DNA from: Bacillota bacterium
GTDB taxonomy: Bacteria > Bacillota > Sulfobacillia > JAJZYS01 > JAJZLH01
Assembly (NCBI GenBank): GCA_021850485.1
Contig: JAJZLY010000021.1
Coordinates: forward strand, 1-14,278
Reading direction: 5' to 3'
Length of the DNA stretch: 14,278 nucleotides
The position numbers and the translations under genes were made by a program. The notes under the pieces were generated by a model. That model worked only from the letters and a program-made list of their open reading frames with translations. It did no database searches and was not told the DNA's origin. How positions within the stretch are numbered: the first letter of the stretch is position 1; the number at the start of each line of letters is the position of its first letter. Below, piece by piece: positions 3 through 13,885 of the stretch.

Positions 3-494
3 ACCACCAGTGCTGGTACGCCAGCTCCAGCTGTGGCCAGCCAGCCAGTGGCCCAGGTGGTGCACCTGAAGGCCAGCATCTTGAATGGCAACTGGCCGCA
101 GTTCACCCCGACCAACTTCACGGCGACCAAAGGCCAGACCGTGGTGTTGACCATCACCTCCTTCGACCCAGGCACCTCCACGCTGCCGGCCAGCTTCACC
201 AAGGTTTCCGGCACGGTAGGCGGCACCGAACTCGTGAACGGCCAGGCGGTGAGCCAGATCGACCCCAACCAGGGATCCCACACCCTGACCATTCCTTCAC
301 TCGGTATCAACATCGTGGTGCCGGCGGTACCGGTCGGCGAGAAGAGCATCACCGTGCAGGCCACCTTCCAGGTGACCAAATCCGGCGACTTCGTGTGGCA
401 GTGCATGGCTCCTTGCGGCACCGGCCCCTCCGGTTGGAGCGGACCGATGGCGGAGAAGGGCTATATGAGCGGTACCCTCACCGTCTTGAACTGA
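3..494 (+). CDS. Cupredoxin-like exported copper protein (5' end outside the window)
   Basis: The frame is open from the window edge, so the true start and any signal peptide or lipobox lie upstream. The GTG at 33 is an internal valine, not a start. The first visible residues are rich in Thr, Ala and Pro, like the linker of a secreted or lipid-anchored protein. A beta-rich cupredoxin domain follows. Counting from the GTG at 33, candidate copper ligands are His83 (GSHTLTIPSLGINI), Cys124 and Cys128 (WQCMAPCG), and Met139 or Met145. The Cys-x3-Cys spacing recalls the CuA loop of cytochrome oxidase subunit II, but the usual His after the second Cys is absent. From memory, actinobacterial and related cupredoxins share this HT..IP..G.N / C..PCG..GW.GPM.. 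pattern, so it is probably a family trait. The likely role is extracytoplasmic electron transfer or copper binding. The same-strand membrane protein begins 84 bp downstream. The fold is a fairly safe call; the copper type is not. Confidence 0.75.
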   Translation, partial: TTSAGTPAPAVASQPVAQVVHLKASILNGNWPQFTPTNFTATKGQTVVLTITSFDPGTSTLPASFTKVSGTVGGTELVNGQAVSQIDPNQGSHTLTIPSLGINIVVPAVPVGEKSITVQATFQVTKSGDFVWQCMAPCGTGPSGWSGPMAEKGYMSGTLTVLN

Positions 495-2767: not shown

Positions 2768-3634
2768 TTAGGCCGATGGCGGGACGCGAGCCGGTGGCGC
2801 CAACGCAGCTAGCGTCTGAGAGACAAAGCAACCCTGGCAGCTGGCCGGAAGGGGCGTGCCGATCGCAGTTTCGGCGCTGGCCGGACAGGCGCCGCAACGC
2901 AAGCCGACATGGCGGCTCCTGGCCTGCACCTCGTCAGAGAAGGCGGAAAACAGGTCTTGGGCGGGAAAGCCAAGAGCCGAGGCGTCGTCCTTCAAGGTGA
3001 TGCCCATGCGGGCGACGATGCGCAGAAGGTCTTCTTTCACCGAGAAGATCTCTTGGCGCAGGTCGTCGTCGGCAGTCGGCAGGTGGTCAGACAGATAGTG
3101 TTCAGCGAAGGCCTGATGGCGTCCCTCGTCGACCACGATGTTGGCCGAGATGCGGCCGAACAAAAATGCTCCCTTGGTCCGGGCGAAGGCGCCGTACAGC
3201 GTGCGGGCGAAGATGTCGCTGACCAAGATGCCCATCACCCAGTGCAAGGGTGTCTTGCCCATTCGCATGCGGTGATGGTATTGAAGCATCTCTGGCATTT
3301 CCTTGATGCGCATCGGGGCGAAGCCGAGCAGACCGTATAGGTGGGTGATGGTCTCGATGTGGCGGGCCTCGTCCATCAGGAAGCTTGGCATATACAACTG
3401 GGCAGACTCACTTTCGCCGCCGAGCATCAGCAGGGCCTGAGCCCCACCCAACAGAGCTGCCCGCTCGCCTAAGAACACAGGCGTGAGCAGGCGAGCCAAC
3501 GCCTGCCGACCGCGCAGATCCAATCCGTCTGGGATGGTCCAGTCCACGTCCTCAATCGTCCACTGGTGTTTGGCGCCGATGTGAAAGAGCCGGGTATAGC
3601 GCGCATCGTCCAGGCGAGGGGCGATTCTGATCAC
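2768..3634 (-). CDS. Ferritin-like (R2-type) diiron protein with C-terminal CxxC pair
   Basis: A 288-residue, mostly helical protein of the ribonucleotide-reductase-R2/ferritin-like superfamily. Likely diiron ligands are E57 (FLGERAAL), E89 and H92 (MDEARHIE), an acidic residue near D140 (GILVSDIFART), and E170 and H173 (VDEGRHQAFAEHY), giving the expected two ExxH-type pairs. The C-terminus carries C247-x2-C250 and C266-x2-C269, which could bind zinc or iron or act as a redox dithiol; R2, R2lox and AurF-type proteins do not normally end this way. The GTG start is set by AAGGAGG 8 nt upstream. The enzyme is probably an O2-activating oxidase/oxygenase or an electron-transfer diiron protein, not a true RNR subunit, since no R1 gene is present. 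It leads a two-gene unit with the radical SAM gene, and two DosR-like boxes lie 88-124 nt upstream of its start, so induction by the adjacent two-component system is likely. Confidence 0.75.
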   Translation of the reverse strand: MIRIAPRLDDARYTRLFHIGAKHQWTIEDVDWTIPDGLDLRGRQALARLLTPVFLGERAALLGGAQALLMLGGESESAQLYMPSFLMDEARHIETITHLYGLLGFAPMRIKEMPEMLQYHHRMRMGKTPLHWVMGILVSDIFARTLYGAFARTKGAFLFGRISANIVVDEGRHQAFAEHYLSDHLPTADDDLRQEIFSVKEDLLRIVARMGITLKDDASALGFPAQDLFSAFSDEVQARSRHVGLRCGACPASAETAIGTPLPASCQGCFVSQTLAALAPPARVPPSA

Positions 3635-3721: not shown

Positions 3722-3735
3722 GGGACTAAAGTCCC
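3722..3735. promoter_or_regulatory. DosR/DevR-like box A
   Basis: GGGACTAAAGTCCC is a perfect palindrome with 6-bp arms. It matches all 14 core positions of the published DosR (DevR) consensus GGGACTWWAGTCCC; the outer flanks (CCA/GCC) do not match the TTS/SAA flanks. It lies 88 nt upstream of the GTG start of the diiron gene and 43 bp beyond the stop of the response-regulator gene. A possible -10 element (TAGGCT on the - strand, around 3694-3699) sits between box and start. Confidence 0.8.
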
Positions 3736-3744
3736 GCCTGGACT

Positions 3745-3758
3745 GGGACGTTAGTCCC
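3745..3758. promoter_or_regulatory. DosR/DevR-like box B
   Basis: GGGACGTTAGTCCC matches 13 of 14 core positions of the DosR consensus. Its centre is 23 bp from the centre of box A, about two helical turns, so two regulator dimers could bind the same DNA face. DosR-regulated promoters in mycobacteria commonly carry such paired sites. It is the promoter-distal site of the pair for the diiron/radical SAM unit. Confidence 0.78.
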
Positions 3759-3778: not shown

Positions 3779-4432
3779 CTAAGTGCGGTAACGCTGAGTT
3801 TGTTCATGGACCAGCACAACGATCTGGGCCCGCCGGGCGAAGCCCAGTTTGCTCAAGATGTCGCTGATATGGTTCTTGACCGTCTTCTCAGAAAGGCCGA
3901 GCTGATCGCCGATCTCGCGGTTGGAAAGGCCGCGGCTGACCGCCATCACAACTTCCATCTCGCGCTTGGTCAGCCGATCCGCCAGGGCCACGGTGGGATT
4001 GGTGCCCTCGGGTGTTTGCAGGTGGCGGACCAAGGCGTCAGCCACCTGTTCGCCCAGCATCGGCCGCCCGGCCATCAGGTCATCGATGGCCGTGATCAGC
4101 CGCGCACTGTCTGCCGATTTGACCAAGAAGCCGTCAACACCGGCCGCCACCGCTTCCACCACCGCTCGGTCCTCGCCGTAGGAGGTGAGCACCAAGATGC
4201 GGGTGGCGGGAGACAGCCGCCGCACATCCGGGACGATGGCTGTTCCAGGCCGGTCGGGAAGGCGCAGATCGAGCACCAACACGTCTGGCCGGTATAGATC
4301 CACCGCCGCCACGGCCTCTTCGGCCGTACCCACCGCGGCCTTCACCTGAAAATCCGGACGATCGGCCAGCACGGTGGTGAGGCCGACCCGGACCACTGCA
4401 TGGTCGTCGACGATCACGATCGATACGCTCAT
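3779..4432 (-). CDS. NarL/LuxR-family response regulator, DevR/DosR-like
   Basis: A 217-residue two-domain regulator. The receiver domain (about 1-120) has the acidic pair D9/D10, phosphoacceptor D55 (VLVLDLRLPD), T83/S84 and K105. The LuxR/GerE helix-turn-helix occupies about 150-212 (LTKREMEVVMAVSRGLSNRE...). Its recognition helix SEKTVKNHIS keeps Lys183, Lys186 and Asn187; from memory the equivalent K-T-V-K-N residues of M. tuberculosis DosR contact its box. The same motif occurs in other NarL-family members, so the residues alone are not decisive, but two near-consensus DosR boxes within 80 bp of the gene strengthen the call. The start ATG overlaps the kinase stop (ATGA) and has AGGAGG 7 nt upstream, so the pair is translationally coupled. 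It probably activates the diiron/radical SAM promoter and possibly its own operon. Confidence 0.88.
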   Translation of the reverse strand: MSVSIVIVDDHAVVRVGLTTVLADRPDFQVKAAVGTAEEAVAAVDLYRPDVLVLDLRLPDRPGTAIVPDVRRLSPATRILVLTSYGEDRAVVEAVAAGVDGFLVKSADSARLITAIDDLMAGRPMLGEQVADALVRHLQTPEGTNPTVALADRLTKREMEVVMAVSRGLSNREIGDQLGLSEKTVKNHISDILSKLGFARRAQIVVLVHEQTQRYRT

Positions 4433-5823
4433 CGGGTTGCCTCCTGGCTGGGATTGGGCAGGGGCGGATCACAAGGGAGTTCGACCGCTACCCGCGCGCC
4501 CCCCTCCGGGCGTGCTCCGAGCGTGGCAACACCGCCTAGGCGCTGTGCCCGTCGGCTCAGGTTGCCTAGGCCGCGGCCGGCCCCTGACACATCGGAAAGT
4601 CCGATTCCATTGTCGTCAACAGTCAGCCGAATGGTGTTGCCGCTGCGCTCCAGGCAGACTAAAACCTCGCTGGCCTGTCCATGGCGGCCGGCATTGGAAA
4701 CCGCCTCAGCGATCAGCATGGATAAATCGCTGGCCCATCCTCCCGGCATCTCCTTGGCCAGGGCCAACCCTTTCCAGGTCAGCTTAATCCCGTAGAGCTC
4801 AGCCATCTGATGTGTCGCCAGGCGCAACTGGTCGACGATCGCCGGAGCTGGGGTCTGATCGAGGTCGTCCAGGACGCGGCGAATGGCATCCATCGCCTGT
4901 TGCACGGCCTCCAGGACCAAGTCTAACGAGCCTGGATCCGGAACAGACGCCATCTGGAGACGGCGGCTGCGGTCCAACTGGATGCCGACAGCGTAAAGCG
5001 TTTGCAGGGCTCCGTCGTGGAGCTCCATGGCAATCTCCCGCCGCTCTGCGGCCCGCACCACAGCGGCTTGATCGCGCAGCAATCTGGCCCGGGCGATGGC
5101 AGCAGCAGCGTGCATGCCAAACATCTCCAACAGCTGTTCTTCTTCCGCCGAAAACGGCTCTTCGCCGTGGTGGCCGCCCAGGTAGAGGTGTCCGACCAGT
5201 TCCCCTTGCCAATACAGTGGCACACCGAGAAAGGTGCGAAAGTGGGGATGTTCTTTGGGAAAGCCGCTGAAGTCCGTCTCGACCTGGACGTTGGACAGAC
5301 GTAGCGGCCGTTCGTCGACGGACAGCCGGCGGAGCAGGCCGCGATGGCTGGGCGGCAGGCCGATCCGGTCGCGGATGTCATCAGCCACCCCGACCGTGAC
5401 GAAGTTCACCACCTGCTCTTGCTCGTCGAATTCGGACAAGGCCCCATAGGTGGCGCCGGCCAGGCGCACGGCGAGACCCACAATCTGGCGCAAGACGTCG
5501 GGATAGGCCTCTTTGGACCGCACGGCCACCGCCGCCTCGTGCAAGGTCTCGAGCAGCGCTCGACGGCGATCTGCCTCCTCGCGCAGCCGCTCGGCCTCCT
5601 CGGCCTGGGCGGTGGCGCGCACCCAGAGCAGCCCCAGTTGAGAGAAGGCCACGAAGACAAAGATGGCAGCGAGCGCCGTGCCCAAGTAGAGCAGGTCCCG
5701 CTGCCAGGCTAAGGGGGCAAAGGGGGCCAGCGTGAGGCCGACCGCCAGCTCGATGGCAACCACCACCGAGGCGGTGAACCAGCGCCAAAAGCCGCCTTTG
5801 ATCATGGACCGGAGTCGGCGCAA
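4429..5823 (-). CDS. Membrane sensor histidine kinase with GAF domain, DevS-like
   Basis: 464 residues. Two TM helices (about 15-38 and 44-68) flank a very short loop, then a coiled coil (70-100), one GAF domain (about 105-250), a HisKA_3 dimerisation/phosphoacceptor segment with H269 (MELHDGALQTLYAVG) and an HATPase_c domain with an N box around N377, G1 motif D403-D404-N405-G406-I407-G408 and a glycine lid near 416-420. The GAF stretch (RTFLGVPLYWQGELVGHLYLG) is very like DevS/DosS GAF domains, which bind haem and sense O2, NO or CO in mycobacteria. His192 and His194 lie just before it and are candidate ligands, but I cannot confirm the alignment. Mycobacterial DevS has two GAF domains and no TM helices, so this is a variant layout. 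TTG 5823 is preferred because GGAGGTG lies 5-6 nt upstream, whereas ATG 5805 has no ribosome binding site. It lies 45 bp after the oxidoreductase gene. Confidence 0.87.
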   Translation of the reverse strand: MRRLRSMIKGGFWRWFTASVVVAIELAVGLTLAPFAPLAWQRDLLYLGTALAAIFVFVAFSQLGLLWVRATAQAEEAERLREEADRRRALLETLHEAAVAVRSKEAYPDVLRQIVGLAVRLAGATYGALSEFDEQEQVVNFVTVGVADDIRDRIGLPPSHRGLLRRLSVDERPLRLSNVQVETDFSGFPKEHPHFRTFLGVPLYWQGELVGHLYLGGHHGEEPFSAEEEQLLEMFGMHAAAAIARARLLRDQAAVVRAAERREIAMELHDGALQTLYAVGIQLDRSRRLQMASVPDPGSLDLVLEAVQQAMDAIRRVLDDLDQTPAPAIVDQLRLATHQMAELYGIKLTWKGLALAKEMPGGWASDLSMLIAEAVSNAGRHGQASEVLVCLERSGNTIRLTVDDNGIGLSDVSGAGRGLGNLSRRAQRLGGVATLGARPEGGARVAVELPCDPPLPNPSQEATR

Positions 5824-5868: not shown

Positions 5869-7755
5869 CTAGCGGGGATGGCGGGCGATCATCCGGTCGG
5901 CCCCGACCATCACGGCGGCCAGTCCAGCGGAGATGATGCCGCCCACAAAGCCAGCCACGGAGAGGAACAACAACACACTGACCACCAGCAGGCCACCAGC
6001 CGTGAGCAAAAACGGTGACACCCGACGGTGAGGGCTGGGGTTGGCTGCGATCTTCGGTGTGAGAACGCCGCGCCGCGGATGAATGGCCAAAACTGCCTGG
6101 GCAGCAGCCTTGCCCTGGGCCATCGATCCGACCACGGTGGACGGTCCGACCAGGGCGTCTCCAGCGACCCAGATCCGGTCACCCTGCGGTCGCTTGGCCT
6201 GATCCAGGCCCTGCTCCCGCTCGTAGGCGACCTGCCCGACTGAGCCCCTCTGCGACAGTATACCGCTGGCCAGCCAGCGCCGGTCCGGGATTGCCTGAGT
6301 GAGATTGGGCCGGGGCAGCGGCAGCCGGGGGGTGAATGGCAGACTGAGCCCGGAGTCGACGCGATAGCCCATGGCCATCACCACCAGATCGCACTGAACC
6401 GCCTCGGTGGTCTCGTCGGTCACCTTGGGCAACTCGCTGGCTCGCCGCTGGCGCGTGTGGCGGAGCAGAGCAGTGTCGACTTGGCCGGCTTTGCCCTCCA
6501 GTCGCTCCACGGAGGTGGAAAAGCGGATCACAACGCCCTCTGCCCTGGCCTCTGCCAGCTCGTCCCGCCGGACCCGGGCGAAGTGTTCATCCATCCAGTC
6601 CACGGCTGTGGCCTGACCGCCCAGCCGACGGACGGAGCGCGCCACATCCATGGCGGTGTTGCCAGCGCCGATGACCAGCACCCGGGTGGTCGCCTGAATG
6701 TCGTTCAGATGGGTGCCGTGCTGGAGGGCGTACTTGGCCCGCTTCAAGAAGTGGGTGGCATCCTCCACCCCTGCGAGCTCCACTCCCGGTACTGCCATCC
6801 GCATCGGCACAGATGCGCCGTGGGCCAAGATGACGGCGTCGTGCATGCCCAAAAGTTCGTCGATCATCACGTCTTTGCCGATGGCGACGCCCAGACGGAC
6901 ACTGACGCCGGCTTGGCGCAGGGCATCGATTGGCCGCTTGGCCACCTGATCAGGCAGCGAGAAGGAAGGAATACCCCAAGCCAGCACGCCAAGCGGCTCC
7001 AGGTCTCGCTCGTAGACGGTGACCTGGGCGCCGTGGGCGACCAGCTCCCAGGCGGCTGCCAAGCCGGCTGGGCCAGAACCGACCACCGCTACGGAGAGAT
7101 CGTGACCGTCCGTGCCTGCGACTTGCGGCTCGGGCACCGGCTGTTGGTCGGTGATGAAGCGCTCCAGCAGACCAATCGACACCGGGCGCTCTCCCGCCAG
7201 GGTCCAAGAGCACGCCCCTTCGCACTGGGCGGCCTGATCGCACACTCTAGAGCAGATGTCCGGCAGGGCAGTGGTCTGACTGAGGATGCTGTGCGCCTTG
7301 TCCAGGTCATGATCCCGGATCGCCGCGATGAAGGCGGGGATGTCATTGTGCGCTGGGCAGCCCTTGAGACAGGTGGGATCGGGGCAGCTCAGACAGCGGG
7401 TGGCCTCGGTCATCGCCTGCTGCCAGGTGGTGAAACCCTGGCGGATCTCCGTGACGTCGAGATCCAACACGGCCGGGTGATGGGCGGCGGGCCGAACTGG
7501 AGTCGAGACAACGATCGGGCCGGACACCAAGATGGCGCTGTACGGGCAGACGCGCTCGCACTGCCGGCAGCCGACGCACAGAGCATCGTTGGCCTGGGCC
7601 ACCCAGTCCCCGGAGTCAAGGCTTAGGGCGCCAGTCGGGCAGCGGATGATGCACTCTTGGCATCCAGCGCAGCGCTCCTGATTGACCTCGACGTGCGCAT
7701 GACGGGGCTCGATCTCGGTCACAGTCCGGGGGGCGGATTCTTGTCTTAGCGCCAT
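5869..7755 (-). CDS. FAD/NAD(P)-dependent oxidoreductase with 2x[4Fe-4S] ferredoxin domain (GltD-like) and C-terminal TM hairpin
   Basis: 628 residues from the ATG at 7755; AAGGAGG lies 7 nt before it, while the in-frame ATG at 7761 is too close. Residue numbers here count from 7761. The ferredoxin domain has C31-x2-C34-x2-C37-x3-C41 and C62-x2-C65-x2-C68-x3-C72. A GltD/NfnB-type Fe-S region follows (C123, C126, C131, C135; C170, C174, C180, C184). Next come the FAD motif GSGPAG (228-233), LGVLAWGIP, the NAD(P) motif GAGNTA (365-370) and the FAD-closing AGDALVGPSTVVGSMAQGK. The last 50 residues form two hydrophobic helices (about 583-600 and 603-620), unusual for this soluble family and implying a membrane anchor. 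It likely moves electrons between NAD(P)H and Fe-S carriers at the membrane. The upstream polyferredoxin gene ends 27 bp before it, which makes that protein the obvious partner. Confidence 0.87.
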   Translation of the reverse strand: MALRQESAPRTVTEIEPRHAHVEVNQERCAGCQECIIRCPTGALSLDSGDWVAQANDALCVGCRQCERVCPYSAILVSGPIVVSTPVRPAAHHPAVLDLDVTEIRQGFTTWQQAMTEATRCLSCPDPTCLKGCPAHNDIPAFIAAIRDHDLDKAHSILSQTTALPDICSRVCDQAAQCEGACSWTLAGERPVSIGLLERFITDQQPVPEPQVAGTDGHDLSVAVVGSGPAGLAAAWELVAHGAQVTVYERDLEPLGVLAWGIPSFSLPDQVAKRPIDALRQAGVSVRLGVAIGKDVMIDELLGMHDAVILAHGASVPMRMAVPGVELAGVEDATHFLKRAKYALQHGTHLNDIQATTRVLVIGAGNTAMDVARSVRRLGGQATAVDWMDEHFARVRRDELAEARAEGVVIRFSTSVERLEGKAGQVDTALLRHTRQRRASELPKVTDETTEAVQCDLVVMAMGYRVDSGLSLPFTPRLPLPRPNLTQAIPDRRWLASGILSQRGSVGQVAYEREQGLDQAKRPQGDRIWVAGDALVGPSTVVGSMAQGKAAAQAVLAIHPRRGVLTPKIAANPSPHRRVSPFLLTAGGLLVVSVLLFLSVAGFVGGIISAGLAAVMVGADRMIARHPR

Positions 7756-7782
7756 TTCCATACCTCCTTGCCCTTCATCCGG

Positions 7783-9294
7783 TTACTGGATCCCGCCCAT
7801 CGCCACATAGAGGGCCGCCACCGAGGCGGTGGCTACCACCACGAAGCCGAGGGCCAGCACATTGACCAGGACCGGGCGGGCGGTCAGGTGTCGCATGTCC
7901 CGGTTCAAGATGCGGTGAGTGACATAGAGTGCACCAACACCGCCGATCACAGCCAGTAGCACTTGGCTCAAGATCACCCCTGATGTTGGCAGGAGGTGGA
8001 CATTGTACAAGTTGGAGTGGGCCGTTCCGAATAGGTTCCAGCCCACCGCGAAGGGGTCCGAGATGGCCGGAATGATGCGCAGCGCGTGGTCCCAGAAGCG
8101 AGGCAACTGGCGGGCCAAGTAGTCGGCGGCCACGATCGGAGTGAGACCGTAGGCCAGCGGTGTCACCCAGGCAGAGAAGGTGTGGGCTAGGTGGGTCTTG
8201 CGGGAACCAGAGGTGTCGACCAGGCGAATGCCGCCAGCCCAGCGGACCAGGGCGTAGAAGCCGGCGCATACAGCGGTGCCAAGGGCGATGATGCCCAGAT
8301 AGTCGACCGGGTTGGGGTATCCCGGAAAGCCGGTGATGTTGTTTAGCCAATTGTCGAGTGGGACGTAAAACGGCAGGGCGTTCAGTTGCTGGAAGAGCAC
8401 CAGCCCGAACAGGCAGAGGATGGCCCAGGCCACGTCTGAGCGGCGGCTGGTGGGAGCGACCAGCGAGGTGAGCGGACGTTGCACAAACAGGCCCACGTTG
8501 TCCTTGGGGCAGTTCTTAAAGCACTCCGAGCAAAGGCCGCAGGTCAGGTTCGATGTGGCCGAACCAGGCCACTCGTACCAGGGGCAGGGGTAACCGTTCT
8601 CGCTACCGCGCATGCAGTCTTTGGTCTCACAGCTCAGACACACGTCGCGGTCTCTGGTCCGAAAGCCAGCCACCATGCCGGTCGAGCCGACGGTGCCGAT
8701 CAAGGCGGTGAGCGGGCACAGATAGCGGCAGAAGGTGCGCCGTTCGAAGGTCAAAAAGGTGATCAAGGCGAGCCCGATCACACCAAAGACCAGCAGGCTG
8801 GTGAACAGCGGCTTACCCGGCCCGGCGATGTTGTAGAACTCCTCAAACCAGGTCAGGACGATGAACACGCCGACCGAGGATAAAATGCCGACTTTGCTCC
8901 ACGACTTCGGCCATTTCAGGCCGAGGGTGAGCGAGATCTTGTGGCGCTGGAAGAAGCTGCGCCGCTGCACCCACTCGGCGAAGCCGCCAAACGGGCACAT
9001 CAGGCACCAGCCGCGACCTACGCCGACCATCAGTAAAAAGACCACGCAGAACCAGATGTACCAGGTGATCACGGTAGCGAAATTGCGGGTTGGAACAGCA
9101 GCGCCGAACAGGCCGGCCACGATCACAAACCAGAAGATCAGCTGGTTGGGTAAGATGAATAGGAACTGGAACGGGCGACTGCGCAGCATTTTCGCCAACA
9201 GCGGGTTGCGCGCCAGGTCGATCTTCGGATCACTCGGTGCGAAGTGTTCCTCCATCCCGTCTCGGCTGGGCTCCCGGAGCTTTCGTACAGCCAC
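7783..9294 (-). CDS. Membrane-bound polyferredoxin, NapH/NosR-like 4Fe-4S protein
   Basis: 503 residues from GTG 9294. The N-terminal half has about four TM helices with the cysteine motifs of this family: GRGWCLMCPFGGF (C97, C100) and RTFCRYLCPL (C189, C193). A cytoplasmic-type ferredoxin segment follows with C219-x2-C222-x4-C227, C237 and C252-x2-C255-x2-C258-x3-C262, for two [4Fe-4S] clusters. The C-terminal half adds four or five more TM helices (about 288-303, 333-352, 370-391, 437-462, 473-500), longer than plain NapH. It should carry electrons across or along the membrane. An upstream in-frame ATG at 9444 would add 50 residues, but that stretch contains the DosR-like box and is not family-like. 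GTG 9294 has GGAAGGTGG 8 nt upstream and is preferred. It is the first gene of the presumed polyferredoxin/oxidoreductase/kinase/regulator operon. Confidence 0.85.
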   Translation of the reverse strand: MAVRKLREPSRDGMEEHFAPSDPKIDLARNPLLAKMLRSRPFQFLFILPNQLIFWFVIVAGLFGAAVPTRNFATVITWYIWFCVVFLLMVGVGRGWCLMCPFGGFAEWVQRRSFFQRHKISLTLGLKWPKSWSKVGILSSVGVFIVLTWFEEFYNIAGPGKPLFTSLLVFGVIGLALITFLTFERRTFCRYLCPLTALIGTVGSTGMVAGFRTRDRDVCLSCETKDCMRGSENGYPCPWYEWPGSATSNLTCGLCSECFKNCPKDNVGLFVQRPLTSLVAPTSRRSDVAWAILCLFGLVLFQQLNALPFYVPLDNWLNNITGFPGYPNPVDYLGIIALGTAVCAGFYALVRWAGGIRLVDTSGSRKTHLAHTFSAWVTPLAYGLTPIVAADYLARQLPRFWDHALRIIPAISDPFAVGWNLFGTAHSNLYNVHLLPTSGVILSQVLLAVIGGVGALYVTHRILNRDMRHLTARPVLVNVLALGFVVVATASVAALYVAMGGIQ

Positions 9295-9381: not shown

Positions 9382-9395
9382 GGGACTAAGGTCCT
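9382..9395. promoter_or_regulatory. DosR/DevR-like box C (weaker)
   Basis: GGGACTAAGGTCCT matches 12 of 14 core positions of the DosR consensus. It lies 88 nt upstream of GTG 9294 of the polyferredoxin, the same distance as box A to the diiron start. It sits in the gap shared with divergent imuB (118 bp before the imuB ATG), so either or both directions could be affected. A lone half-site GGGAC lies at 9357-9361 on the - strand. Confidence 0.55.
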
Positions 9396-9404: not shown

Positions 9405-9512
9405 TCACGGATGAATCGGCCAAGAGCGGATTTTGCCGGGCCATCTTTGGGCAGGACGCCAGCCATCTGATGTCTAAATAGCCGGACCCGGGTATCGAGG
9501 GAGACGGTTTTG

Positions 9513-10586
9513 ATGTGGGTTGCCTTTTTATCCGTCGGCGGGCTCTACGCCAGCGCCGAGGGTCATCCGGTCATCTTGGTTCAAGGCCATGTGGTCTGGG
9601 ATGTTACGCCTGGCGTCGATGGCGTAAGGCCGGGGATGAAGGCCAGAGAGGCAGAACTGGCCGCTCCGGGAATTCCTCACCTCAGCTATGAAAAAGCGCA
9701 CCATGATCGCCCACTGGTGGCCCTGTGGCACACCCTGCAGGAGGCGGCTCCAGTGGTGGCGGTCGGACCAGATCTCATGCATACGGCTTTTTTGGCCTGG
9801 CCCGGAAATTGGCCGGGTCGAGAATTGGCGTTGATTCAAGACCGCTATCCAACTGCCCGAATCGGCGTGGCGACCAACCGTCTGGTGGCGAAGGCCGTGC
9901 TGCCGAGTCAGCCCGGGATGTTCCGGGTGGCGCCGGGTGAGGAGGCTAAAGCGCTGTCTGGGCTGCCGATAAGAGAGTTGTGGACCTTGCCTAAAGATGT
10001 GCAAGAGCAACTCCTGGCGCTTGGTCTGGAGACAGCAGGCGAGGTGGCAGCTGTCCCCCAGACAGTGCTGGTGAATCGGATGGGGCAGGCTGGATACCTG
10101 GCCGCCAGGACCGCACGCGGGCTGGACAACCAGAAAATCCATCACCTTGATCCCACACCCGATCTGACCGAGCGCCGGGTGTGGGCCCCCCCGTGTCGCG
10201 ACCATCTGGCCGAGGCGGTCGCGGAGATGGCTGTGCGGGTGGCGAAGCGTCTGCCAGCGGAGATCGGGGCAAAAGAGCTGACGCTTGTCTTGGACGGTCA
10301 CCGTCTGCAGCGCAGTTGGCCTGCTCCGATCCGTGACATCGGCCGGATCGGCCGGACAGCCGCCTTGCTCACCCTCAGCGTGCGGGCAGAAGAAGTGGAG
10401 GAGGCGACTGTCTCGCTTGGTCAGCTGGCCGCGGTGGCGGCAGTCCAAGAGAGACTCTTTGGGCCAGACCAGACGGCCATCCCGGAGCTGGCTGACGTGT
10501 CGCGTGGGGTAGAGATCGACCGATACGATGCGTTTTTGCGTCGCTACGACCCCCTTTTTGGAGGCAGCGATGGACAGAGGGCGTGA
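9513..10586 (+). CDS. imuB: ImuB-like, catalytically degenerate Y-family polymerase
   Basis: 357 residues from ATG 9513, which has GAGGGAG 9 nt upstream; a TTG at 9510 is directly in front. The Y-family layout is visible: a palm start (WVAFLSVGGLYASAE), the finger-region motif RIGVATNRLVAKAVL, a helix-hairpin-helix thumb (LPIRELWTLPKDVQ to about residue 205) and a little-finger domain (about 240-320). The catalytic acids are lost: the N-terminal Asp of the DxDxFFA motif is replaced, and the Asp-Glu pair of the SxDE motif reads GPDLMHT. This fits ImuB, which does not polymerise but scaffolds DnaE2 at the beta clamp. The sequence QERLF (about 312-316) matches the QxxLF clamp-binding motif. It is shorter than typical ImuB and lacks the usual C-terminal extension, which may be supplied by the next gene. 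The 3' end overlaps that gene by 17 bp. Confidence 0.75.
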   Translation: MWVAFLSVGGLYASAEGHPVILVQGHVVWDVTPGVDGVRPGMKAREAELAAPGIPHLSYEKAHHDRPLVALWHTLQEAAPVVAVGPDLMHTAFLAWPGNWPGRELALIQDRYPTARIGVATNRLVAKAVLPSQPGMFRVAPGEEAKALSGLPIRELWTLPKDVQEQLLALGLETAGEVAAVPQTVLVNRMGQAGYLAARTARGLDNQKIHHLDPTPDLTERRVWAPPCRDHLAEAVAEMAVRVAKRLPAEIGAKELTLVLDGHRLQRSWPAPIRDIGRIGRTAALLTLSVRAEEVEEATVSLGQLAAVAAVQERLFGPDQTAIPELADVSRGVEIDRYDAFLRRYDPLFGGSDGQRA

Positions 10587-10821
10587 GCGGGCAGTCCAAG
10601 TGTGCTGTGACGAAAGTGGCGACCCCGCGACCTTCGTAATGGGGCAGGTGACGTACGGACCGCTGCGGATCGAGGACACTTGGGCCTATCGCGAACCTTG
10701 GTGGCAGGCGGATGGGGGCGGTAACCGCCAGGTGTACCGGGTGCGGAGCAAAGCGGGTCACCTGTTCGATCTGTGCAAGATGCCGGCCGGGGACTGGCGG
10801 ATCTCCCGCCTGTTTGATTGA
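10570..10821 (+). CDS. Small DUF6504-like protein, probable detached ImuB C-terminal domain
   Basis: 83 residues starting at the ATG inside the end of imuB; the frame extends upstream, but only this start fits the overlap. Conserved-looking features are IEDTWAYREPWW, YRVRSKAGHLFDL and the ending GDWRISRLFD. From memory, actinobacterial ImuB proteins end in a similar pattern (W.gPW...WW / ..R..v....G....l....W.l...YD), and separate small proteins of this type are catalogued as DUF6504. Its place between imuB and dnaE2, with a 17-bp overlap on one side and a single base on the other, points to a mutasome component. No enzymatic residues are seen; a role in protein contact is the reasonable guess. 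Identification of the family is moderate, the gene itself is secure from its position and coupling. Confidence 0.65.
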   Translation: MDRGRERAVQVCCDESGDPATFVMGQVTYGPLRIEDTWAYREPWWQADGGGNRQVYRVRSKAGHLFDLCKMPAGDWRISRLFD

Positions 10822-10822
10822 G

Positions 10823-13800
10823 ATGGCAACCCACCTACACCTGCACGGACCCTTCAGCCACTTGGATGGTGCCTCTTCGGCAGCAGATCTGGCAGCGCGA
10901 GCAGCGTCGCTCGGCCAGCAGGCACTGGCCCTCACAGACCACAACTCGCTTTCTGGCATCGGCGAGTTTACACAGGCCTGCACCCAGGCGGGGGTGAGGC
11001 CGATCATCGGGGCGGAGGTCACGGTCGAGGATGCGACCGGTGCATCCAGCCACCTAACACTACTGGTCCCCGATCAGACCGGCTACAGCCATCTGTCACA
11101 ACTCATCTCTGCCGCTCACCTGAGCCGTCCTCGCGGTCAGCCAATGGCATCGCAAGAGGCGCTGGCTGCCCATGCGCCCTACCTGATCGGGCTCAGCGGT
11201 TGCCGTCAGGGCGAGGTGTCCAGACATCTGCTGGGGGGCCGCCGGGAATTGGCAGAAGAGGCGGCCAGGAGACTGATGGGGTGGTTCGGGAGAGGTAAGT
11301 TCTTCCTCGAACAAGAGGTTTGCCGGCTGCCAGGAGACCGTCCCTTACAGCGCGCCATGCGCGACCTTGGCCAGCACCTGCGACTGCCCCGAGTGGCCAC
11401 GTCAAACGCGCACTACGCCCAAGCCCAGGATTTTTGGTTGCACGATCTGTTGGTCTGTATCCGGACCAACAGTCGGGTGGATGATCTGGCACCTGGCCGA
11501 CCGATGAACGACTGGCAGTTTGTGCAATCTGAGGCGGACATGGCGCGCGGGCTGCCAGATGATCCGGCGGCCGTGGCGATGACCGATCGAGTGGCCGATA
11601 TGTGCGGGCTGGCGCTGCCTGATGCCAGGTTGCTGTTTCCGGCCGTCTTGTTGCCGCAAGGAGCGTCGAGCGCCTACGTCTACCTTCGCCAACTCACCGA
11701 ACAAGGGGCAATCTGGCGCTATGGCCAGATCGGCTCAAGATTGCGCCAGCGTATCGACGAGGAGCTCTCGGTGATTGCCCAAACTAAATTCACCGACTAC
11801 ATGCTGGCGGTAGCGGAGATCGCCGGCTGGGCGAGAGGGGCAGGAATTCGCACCTCTGGTCGCGGTTCTGCTGCGGATAGCGTGGTGGCCTACTGCCTGG
11901 GTCTCACCGATGTCGATGCCTTTGCCAGAGATCTCCCCTTTGCCCGGTTTTTGAGCCTGGGCCGGACCGACCCACCGGATGTGGATTTAGACTTCGACGC
12001 CGACCGCAGGGAGGAGGTGGCCGCCCACGTCGCCAGGCGTTACGGGCAAGACCATGTGGCGGCGGTTGCCACTTATGTCCGGTTGGAGGGAAGGCTGGCC
12101 ATCCGGGAGGTCGGCAAGGCTCTGGGGCTGCCAGCGGCAGAACTGGGAGCTATCGCCAAGCGAGTGCCTTATTACGTGGGAGCAGATGGTCTGCGAGAGG
12201 CTCTAGTGCGCGTGCCAGAACTGAGGCAGTTGAAGCTGTCCACAGGGCGGATCGAGACCTTATTGCAGGCCGCCGAGCGTCTTGCCGACTGGCCGCGCCA
12301 TCTGGGCACCCACCTCGGAGGCCTGGTGGTGACTGCCTGTCCAGTGGCCGAGGTCATGCCGCTGCAGATGGCGGCAAAGGGAACGGTGGTAGGCCAGTTC
12401 GATAAGCGGGACTGCGAGACGTTTGGCTTGATCAAAATTGACCTACTTCATTTGCGCACCCTGTCCGCGGTGAACGAGGCAATCACGGTGTCCCAGGTGC
12501 CATGGGAGACCATCCCAGCTGACGATCCGGCCACCTTCCGCCGACTTCGGCGAGCTGAGACGGTGGGTGCCTTCCAGCTGGAGTCTCCGGCCCAACGGGC
12601 CCTGCACCGGCGGATGAAGGGCGATCAGCTGGAGGATGTGATCGCTGCCACCGCTCTGATCAGACCGGGCCCGATCAAGGGGGACATGGTGGCGCCTTTC
12701 GTCAGGCGGCGGCTTGGCAAAGAGGCGATCATCTATCCGGCCCCTGGCCTGGAGGACGTGTTGGGCCGCACCTACGGCGTGGTGGTGTACCAAGAGCAGG
12801 TGTTGGAGATCGCGGTGCGGGTGGCCGGGTTTAGCCCGGCCGAAGCAGACCGGCTGCGGCGGACGATGAGCCGGGCGCGCTCCAAGGCCGAGATGCAGTC
12901 CCTGGGCGATGTGTTCTGCGCACGGGCCGTGGCAAGAGGAGTGGACCGGGGGGCGGCAGCGGAGATTTGGCAGACTCTGCTCGGCTATGCCTCCTACGGC
13001 TTTGCGGAGGGGCATGCCGCCGCCTTCGGACTGATCGGCTATCGCACCTTGTATCTTTTGGAACACCACTCGGCTGTCTGGTACGCAGCCCTCCTCAATC
13101 ACCAGCCAATGGGCTACTACCCACCGCAAACGCTGGTCACAGAGGCGAGGCGAAGAGGCATCCAGGTGCGGTTGCCAGATGTGAACCGGAGCGAACCGAC
13201 GTGGACGGTGCAAGATGGCGCATTGTCCTGCGGCCTCCTACAGGTGCGAAACATGAACGCGGAGGAAACGGACCGGGTGCTGGCCGGCCGACCCTACCGC
13301 ACGGCCTGGGATCTTGCGGAGAAAAGCCGCCTTCAGCCGGCAGCGCTCCGCCAACTGGTGCTGGCGGGAGCGCTTGATAGCCTGATCCCCAATCGGCGGC
13401 GAGCGCTGTGGCAGGTGGGGGGCCAGGCGGCTGTGGCAGATCTGGCTGATTTCACGCCCGAACGGCGACTGGCCCAGGAGATGGTGGCACTGGGATTGGC
13501 GGTGTCCGCGCACCCGCTCTCTTGCTTTCGCCCGCGCCTGGAGCGAGCAGGCGTGTTGCGCACCGACCAGGTGCTGTGTGCTCCGCATCGCATGCAGGCG
13601 ACGGTGGCCGGAGCGCTGGTGCGCCCGCACCGCCCGCCCACTAGGTCCGGTGAGCGAGTCGTGTTCTTGTGTCTGGAAGATGAGCGCGGTCTTCTGGATG
13701 TGACGGTGCCCGAGGCGGTCTACCGGCAAAACGCAGATGCGATCTTCGGGCCAGACGCCTGGCTGGTGGTGGTCGAGGGCACTGTGCGGGAAGTTGGCAC

Positions 13801-13885
13801 GGGTGCCAGTTTGGATGCACAGCGGGTGACCGCACTCACCGCTTATCTGGGCAGGAGTTACGCCCTGCAGCCGCCACGTGCGTGA
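10823..13885 (+). CDS. dnaE2: Error-prone DNA polymerase III alpha subunit DnaE2
   Basis: 1020 residues from ATG 10823, one base after the stop of the preceding gene (translational coupling). The frame is open further upstream, but only this start gives the standard N-terminus MATHLHLHGPFSHLDGAS of the PHP domain, with H4, H6, D15 and the LTDHNSL motif (D39/H40). The C-family palm has PPDVDLDFD with D388 and D390 as the metal-binding pair and D540 in IKIDLLHLRTL as the third acid. The fingers, a tandem helix-hairpin-helix region (LAEKSRLQPAALRQLVLAGALDSL is in the latter part) and a C-terminal OB fold (VAGALVRPHRPP to VTALTAYL) follow. Length and partner genes indicate DnaE2 rather than the replicative DnaE1. 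It performs translesion synthesis after DNA damage together with ImuB. I see no LexA-type operator upstream of the operon. Confidence 0.93.
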   Translation: MATHLHLHGPFSHLDGASSAADLAARAASLGQQALALTDHNSLSGIGEFTQACTQAGVRPIIGAEVTVEDATGASSHLTLLVPDQTGYSHLSQLISAAHLSRPRGQPMASQEALAAHAPYLIGLSGCRQGEVSRHLLGGRRELAEEAARRLMGWFGRGKFFLEQEVCRLPGDRPLQRAMRDLGQHLRLPRVATSNAHYAQAQDFWLHDLLVCIRTNSRVDDLAPGRPMNDWQFVQSEADMARGLPDDPAAVAMTDRVADMCGLALPDARLLFPAVLLPQGASSAYVYLRQLTEQGAIWRYGQIGSRLRQRIDEELSVIAQTKFTDYMLAVAEIAGWARGAGIRTSGRGSAADSVVAYCLGLTDVDAFARDLPFARFLSLGRTDPPDVDLDFDADRREEVAAHVARRYGQDHVAAVATYVRLEGRLAIREVGKALGLPAAELGAIAKRVPYYVGADGLREALVRVPELRQLKLSTGRIETLLQAAERLADWPRHLGTHLGGLVVTACPVAEVMPLQMAAKGTVVGQFDKRDCETFGLIKIDLLHLRTLSAVNEAITVSQVPWETIPADDPATFRRLRRAETVGAFQLESPAQRALHRRMKGDQLEDVIAATALIRPGPIKGDMVAPFVRRRLGKEAIIYPAPGLEDVLGRTYGVVVYQEQVLEIAVRVAGFSPAEADRLRRTMSRARSKAEMQSLGDVFCARAVARGVDRGAAAEIWQTLLGYASYGFAEGHAAAFGLIGYRTLYLLEHHSAVWYAALLNHQPMGYYPPQTLVTEARRRGIQVRLPDVNRSEPTWTVQDGALSCGLLQVRNMNAEETDRVLAGRPYRTAWDLAEKSRLQPAALRQLVLAGALDSLIPNRRRALWQVGGQAAVADLADFTPERRLAQEMVALGLAVSAHPLSCFRPRLERAGVLRTDQVLCAPHRMQATVAGALVRPHRPPTRSGERVVFLCLEDERGLLDVTVPEAVYRQNADAIFGPDAWLVVVEGTVREVGTGASLDAQRVTALTAYLGRSYALQPPRA

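Follow-up and report, generated by a model that had tools for sequence, protein, structure and literature searches.

Described diiron and gas-sensing systems

Oxygen- and NO-sensing regulators of the DosR kind control dormancy in mycobacteria. In the mycobacterial kinase DevS (DosS), His149 is the heme ligand and Tyr171 the gas-discriminating distal residue (PMC4082495), and the DosR consensus has been published as TTSGGGACTWWAGTCCCSAA (PMC2275270). Our literature search found no report linking DevR/DevS with acidophiles. Among ferritin-like diiron oxygenases, BioE takes part in biotin synthesis and has long acyl chains as substrates (PMC12915131); the aldehyde-deformylating oxygenase (ADO), R2lox and AurF N-oxygenase families are further points of comparison for the protein described here.

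The window, that is, the whole stretch of 14,278 nucleotides that was analysed (contig JAJZLY010000021.1 of a Bacillota bacterium, class Sulfobacillia), carries a diiron gene and a radical SAM gene downstream of a two-component system of the DosS/DosR kind, with DosR-type boxes directly before the diiron gene (Table 1). Our preferred reading, to which we give a probability of about 0.6 as a whole, is that an R2lox/aldehyde-oxygenase-fold diiron oxidase/oxygenase was captured by a gas-sensing regulon: this diiron copy and the TIGR04053 gene would belong to a small regulon of the DosS/DosR-like system, and the enzyme, supplied with electrons through its cysteine tail, would act with O2 or NO on a substrate of hydrophobic nature. 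A diiron family would thereby be tied to heme-based gas sensing, known chiefly from mycobacterial dormancy, by DNA sites beyond mere adjacency, and in acid-mine bacteria.

Table 1. Features of the locus, with positions counted from the first base of the window.
Feature	Position	Strand	Remarks
Radical SAM/SPASM protein, TIGR04053	1547..2695	-	CLLACSHC cluster motif and SPASM CxxC-x5-C
Ferritin-like (R2lox/ADO-fold) diiron carboxylate protein	2768..3634	-	288 aa; ligands E57, E89, H92, D140, E170, H173
Cys tail, residues 247-269, C247GAC250 ... C266QGC269	2828..2896	-	predicted disordered
Proximal DosR-type box GGGACTTTAGTCCC	3722..3735	.	88 bp before the diiron start codon
Distal DosR-type box GGGACTAACGTCCC	3745..3758	.	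23 bp from the proximal box, start to start
DosR/DevR-type response regulator	3779..4432	-	217 aa; DNA-contact K, K, N of EKTVKN kept
Membrane-anchored GAF histidine kinase, DosS/DosT type	4429..5823	-	H192 = His149 equivalent, Y214 = Tyr171 equivalent
GltD-like NAD(P)H Fe-S flavoprotein	5869..7761	-	N-terminal ferredoxin clusters, C-terminal hydrophobic segment
NosR/NapH-like membrane polyferredoxin	7783..9255	-	start 9255, 490 aa
DosR-type box AGGACCTTAGTCCC, one mismatch	9382..9395	.	before the NosR-like gene

The diiron protein and known families

The diiron ORF opens with a GTG preceded by a Shine-Dalgarno-like AGGAGG, and the orthologues in two congeneric genomes are about 90% identical and equal in length (288 aa). 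An earlier note on this DNA had described an R2/ferritin-like core that keeps both ExxH pairs and ends in four cysteines, and this description was confirmed: the pairs are E89-H92 and E170-H173, the other two ligands are E57 and D140, and Cys is found at positions 247, 250, 266 and 269 and nowhere else in the protein. The AlphaFold2 model has a confident helical core (pLDDT >90 for 184 residues) whose fold matches R2lox, RNR R2 and ADO (Z about 23-25). The ligand geometry is taken from alignment, in which all six ligands are invariant wherever aligned among 51 relatives and D140 lies at the helix-3 Glu of ADO. No substrate gene was found near the diiron gene.

With ADO (PF11266, TIGR04059) the protein shares the ferritin-like fold, the six-ligand diiron site and a C-terminal half that can be aligned over residues 120-246. 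In contrast to ADO, it has Asp for the helix-3 Glu and an additional Cys tail, it scores under the PF11266 gathering threshold (25.6 vs 28 bits) and far under that of TIGR04059 (25 vs 222.65 bits), and no acyl-ACP reductase partner was found adjoining the window gene. R2lox provides the top structural match of the model (7qbp, Z 24.6, 2.9 A over 244 residues; 3ee4, Z 24.1) and aligns with the N-terminal half in the profile search, whereas identity to it is 18-19% and the NCBIfam R2lox equivalog cut-off was missed (12.6 vs 194 bits); to our knowledge, R2lox has no Cys tail. The AurF family PF11583 was matched by all 29 relatives (E up to 0.01), and the window protein itself scored 23.4 against a gathering cut-off of 29.6 bits, so that its ADO and AurF scores are just under the Pfam cut-offs and its R2lox score far under.

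BioE has the ligands E, E, H, E, E, H (PMC12915131), an order repeated in the window protein except for Asp in place of the helix-3 Glu; this is a likeness of ligand order, not of compared sequences. A link to BioE was rejected because a single distant relative (L062) adjoins bio genes and the others do not. The order in that relative (L062:3999-12132) is kinase, regulator, diiron gene, rhodanese, bioF, bioA, bioD and bioB, which recalls BioE and leaves a diiron step in pimeloyl supply possible there.

Putative gas-sensing genes and DosR-type boxes

Judged by sequence, the genes upstream of the diiron gene encode a DosS/DosT-type heme-GAF kinase and a DosR-type regulator. The top PDB match of the kinase GAF domain is the mycobacterial DevS (DosS) GAF-A (E 1.5e-23) in a gap-free alignment that conserves both the proximal heme His (His149 equivalent) and the distal Tyr (Tyr171 equivalent), and that of the regulator is DevR (3c3w, E 3.3e-40), with K179/K182/N183 of EKTVKN retained. 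The locus thus resembles the DosS/DosT-DosR system of mycobacteria in its heme-GAF kinase, its DevR-type regulator and its DosR-box sites, but differs from it in that the window kinase has a single GAF and a membrane anchor, the regulon is apparently very small, and the host genome is acidophilic and Bacillota-type.

The proximal palindrome GGGACTTTAGTCCC equals the core of the published consensus and the distal one GGGACTAACGTCCC nearly so. In the 1,612,407 bases of the genome, GGGACYWWRGTCCC, the exact core, is found a single time, before the diiron gene, and three of the six genomic sites with no more than one mismatch to the core belong to this locus, the third of them being the box ahead of the NosR-like gene. 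None of 2,000 shuffles of the regulator-diiron intergenic region equalled the box result. The core is exact, whereas the consensus flanks TTS...SAA are matched only in part (4-5 mismatches of 20). Since GGGAC-N4-GTCCC is not enriched genome-wide (four sites, as many as for the reversed control), what speaks for the boxes is their position, their tandem order and their conservation across three genomes. Tandem boxes precede the diiron gene in all three members of the window genus, and the proximal box lies within 22 identical bases with varying flanks; these three genomes are related and, as far as the records show, all metagenome-assembled, and genes in relatives were called by a simple custom script. 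In one of them (L022), an inserted gene separates the regulator from the diiron gene and both boxes stay with the latter, which indicates that they belong to it. The box before the NosR-like gene is present in both genomes in which it could be checked, being exact in L021 (230-243); the L022 locus does not reach there. For the NosR-like gene, we preferred the start at 9255 over the ATG at 9444 because the orthologue and the gene call both give 490 aa and the box then lies upstream. No Rfam element was detected in the window.

The preferred reading would begin with the recruitment, in the window genus, of this diiron copy and the radical SAM gene downstream into the DosS/DosR-like regulon. The kinase would sense the loss of O2, or NO/CO, and the regulator would bind at two places, the tandem boxes that precede the diiron gene and the box ahead of the NosR-like, GltD-like, kinase and regulator genes. 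Because boxes precede both units, both would be made at low O2 or with NO/CO, and the diiron/radical SAM pair is probably switched on as oxygen runs low. The diiron enzyme would then employ the scarce O2, or NO, in a reaction with a hydrophobic substrate resembling an acyl compound or an aldehyde, the nature of which is our guess. The link to a gas sensor makes the role of the diiron protein directly testable, with low O2 or NO, one regulator and two enzymes. The oxygen theme of the earlier note survives as DosS/DosR-like gas sensing, the DosR boxes immediately preceding the diiron gene, and not as the pairing of diiron and radical SAM enzymes that it had proposed.

The diiron protein might instead sit within the signalling device and tune the kinase by binding O2 or NO, and diiron genes do stand beside a kinase and regulator in three families of the class (the window genus; L056; L060 and L062) on at least two branches of the tree. 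The kinases beside the L060 and L062 copies have both heme residues, and those of L056 are of another build. The tree places the window genus together with the L020/L056 copy (95/93, long branches) and sets L060/L062 on a branch of their own, so the link between diiron and two-component genes arose at least twice or was often lost. A two-mismatch box precedes the L060 operon (10/500 shuffles); no recognisable box was found before the L062 and L056 diiron loci. Against such a role, which we regard as quite unlikely, the window gene has its own promoter region with regulator boxes between itself and the regulator, and together with the L022 insertion this makes it look like a target of the regulator; moreover, all six catalytic ligands are retained.

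The wider diiron family and its reductase-like partner

On comparison with its relatives, the window diiron gene is a diverged paralogue in a family whose usual partner in the class is an HMG-CoA-reductase-like enzyme. The gene for that enzyme adjoins the diiron gene in 28 of 41 loci compared, in 11 of them together with an acyl-CoA ligase gene, and such neighbours point to a metabolic enzyme. The second diiron copy of the window genome (39% identical; L053:5102-7352 with its neighbour) also adjoins a reductase-like gene, whose product keeps the catalytic residues and has the HMG-binding residues replaced. The catalytic Glu, Lys and Asp are kept in all 30 reductase-like proteins, while at the positions that we take to bind HMG, as assigned from human HMG-CoA reductase, Ser is replaced by Glu and the Lys and Asn/His positions show a different invariant pattern; the score against TIGR00533 is 166 with a cut-off of 442. 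In the window genome, HMG-CoA synthase was not detected and Dxr is present. The mevalonate pathway was rejected as the meaning of this neighbour, a role that the replaced residues and the presence of Dxr without a detected HMG-CoA synthase make unlikely.

The reductase-like protein could conceivably reduce acyl-CoA in concert with an ADO-like oxygenase, and a partner with such changed substrate residues points to undescribed lipid chemistry. Extended further, this would give the wider family a pathway that leads from acyl-CoA to hydrocarbons or alcohols and has no relation to that of cyanobacteria. It would consist of an acyl-CoA ligase, an acyl-CoA reductase that derives from HMG-CoA reductase and has had its pocket rebuilt, and an ADO-like oxygenase that carries its own Fe-S tail for electrons; the window copy would be a version of this oxygenase recruited with the radical SAM gene to a DosR-type low-oxygen regulon. 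We offer this as a speculative scheme with low odds. Elsewhere in the family, a heme-copper oxidase subunit I gene is followed directly by a diiron copy that has no tail (L059:3405-6175).

The radical SAM neighbour

The protein encoded downstream belongs to TIGR04053 (437.8 bits against a cut-off of 395), with CxxxCxxC present as CLLACSHC. Its gene follows the diiron gene on the same strand after a gap of 72 bp in which no sigma-70-type promoter match and no terminator-like match was found, and the two apparently form a single transcription unit. In a first survey, 17 of 19 diiron-bearing genomes held a TIGR04053 gene above the cut-off, but the two genes adjoin in only three of the 17, all of the window genus; in the other 14, they are on different contigs or far apart. 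Within 6 kb in the named genome records, a window-type radical SAM gene stands beside a diiron gene only in L021 and L022, and the nearest radical SAM relatives (about 65% identity) lie between transporter and pilus-type genes. Confined as it is to one genus, the pairing is recent and local. The adjacency on which the earlier note had built is thus real in the window genus and the co-occurrence broad, while the families are rarely neighbours, an outcome that the note itself had named as refuting its proposal; no fusion of the two was found, the long frames in L005, L006, L014 and L015 being overlapping upstream frames and discarded as candidates.

The note had offered two meanings for the pair. 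According to the first, the diiron protein would be a scavenger that reduces O2 or NO and shields the oxygen-sensitive radical SAM enzyme, wired like rubrerythrin and taking in electrons through the Cys tail. It suits a scavenger that the two genes apparently share a transcription unit under common DosR-type boxes and that a gas sensor would control both, and the diiron four-helix bundle with a CxxC...CxxC element recalls rubrerythrin as an idea for electron entry; unlike in rubrerythrin, folding or iron binding by the window tail would be an idea only. We nevertheless consider shielding unlikely: relatives beside HMG-CoA-reductase-like and acyl-CoA ligase genes point to a metabolic enzyme, TIGR04053 genes elsewhere have no diiron neighbour, and the Pfam matches listed for the window protein and its relatives include neither rubrerythrin nor flavodiiron similarity, an absence that is not proof.

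The second meaning was alternative chemistry, an O2-dependent diiron and an O2-independent radical SAM enzyme performing the same step on one substrate, as AcsF and BchE do. The genes are adjacent and co-directional, and the presence of TIGR04053 in 17 of 19 genomes would suit such a pair. Yet pairs of this kind are usually oppositely regulated or apart, whereas here both genes follow common boxes; shared ancestry confounds the co-occurrence, and only one genus shows the adjacency. We hold this to be very improbable.

A heme role of the window radical SAM gene was rejected, the AhbD and NirJ models scoring far below cut-off; a HemQ/ChdC homologue in the genome means that the gene is not needed for heme b. 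No publication naming TIGR04053 was found. In L109, hemA-like and ccsA-like (cytochrome c assembly) genes come after a TIGR04053 gene, which hints at a tetrapyrrole role for part of the family.

The cysteine tail

Cysteines are concentrated in the tails of the 51 relatives (165 of 3,059 residues vs 22 of 12,588 in the cores), more than by chance. A C-terminal CxxC-x5-C after a linker of variable length is present in 40 of them; the remaining tails have two CxxC (three, all of the window genus), CxxC...CxC (one) or no Cys (seven), and the C-terminus of a member from outside the class likewise reads CAGCLLALWC. The same motif occurs in the SPASM domain of the neighbouring radical SAM protein (CGTCVHRFIC). 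CxxC-x5-C is the spacing of SPASM domains and of endonuclease III-type 4Fe-4S loops; on that ground, the favoured idea is that the family tail may hold an Fe-S or similar site.

The window protein departs from this Fe-S type spacing. Its C266xxC269 is part of the family-wide motif, whose third Cys is absent, and the C247/C250 pair, giving the two-CxxC form, is found only in the window genus; with the third Cys gone and a new pair present, a putative tail ligand would be held differently. Structure prediction, run as the earlier note had proposed, gave the confident core described above and no confident tail, with pLDDT about 40 for both the window protein and a relative with the full motif, and was dropped as a source of tail geometry. 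The suggestion that the tail holds a metal or acts as a dithiol relay accordingly fared in two ways: a metal- or electron-carrying role is plausible since C266 and C269 continue a motif kept in most relatives, while C247 and C250 are peculiar to the genus and Cys is missing altogether from the tails of 7 of the 51 relatives.

The protein could also be simply a metabolic enzyme induced by hypoxia, the radical SAM gene beside it being incidental and the tail cysteines drifting remnants that hold no metal. Such a reading agrees with the restriction of the radical SAM adjacency to one genus, the missing third Cys and the disorder of the tail in the models, but it would have to explain why all four Cys are kept in three of three congeners although the rest of the tail varies, and why four Cys recur in the differently built L020 tail; we think it improbable.

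Returning to the preferred reading, electrons probably reach the diiron enzyme through the Cys tail, and our guess at their supply is that they would pass from the co-regulated GltD-like Fe-S flavoprotein, a possible donor, and the NosR-like ferredoxin protein to the tethered Cys motif, a site of Fe-S, Fe or Zn, or a dithiol, and on to the diiron site. Electron supply is a recurring bottleneck for diiron oxygenases, and the family-wide tail suggests one with its own electron inlet.

Other features of the window

At one end of the window (3-494) lies a cupredoxin-like fragment with no Pfam match, whose end WQCMAPCGTGPSGWSGPM resembles the CuA/cytochrome oxidase subunit II motif without its His. 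At 9510-13885, a Y-family-polymerase-like ORF precedes a DnaE-type polymerase, an order like that of a DnaE2/ImuB mutasome; we named the first ORF by reading its sequence, as Pfam gave no match for it. In a congener (L110, G002:C14), a second TIGR04053 copy has recombinase and transposon-type genes as neighbours, and a DnaE2 homologue lies close by on the other strand.
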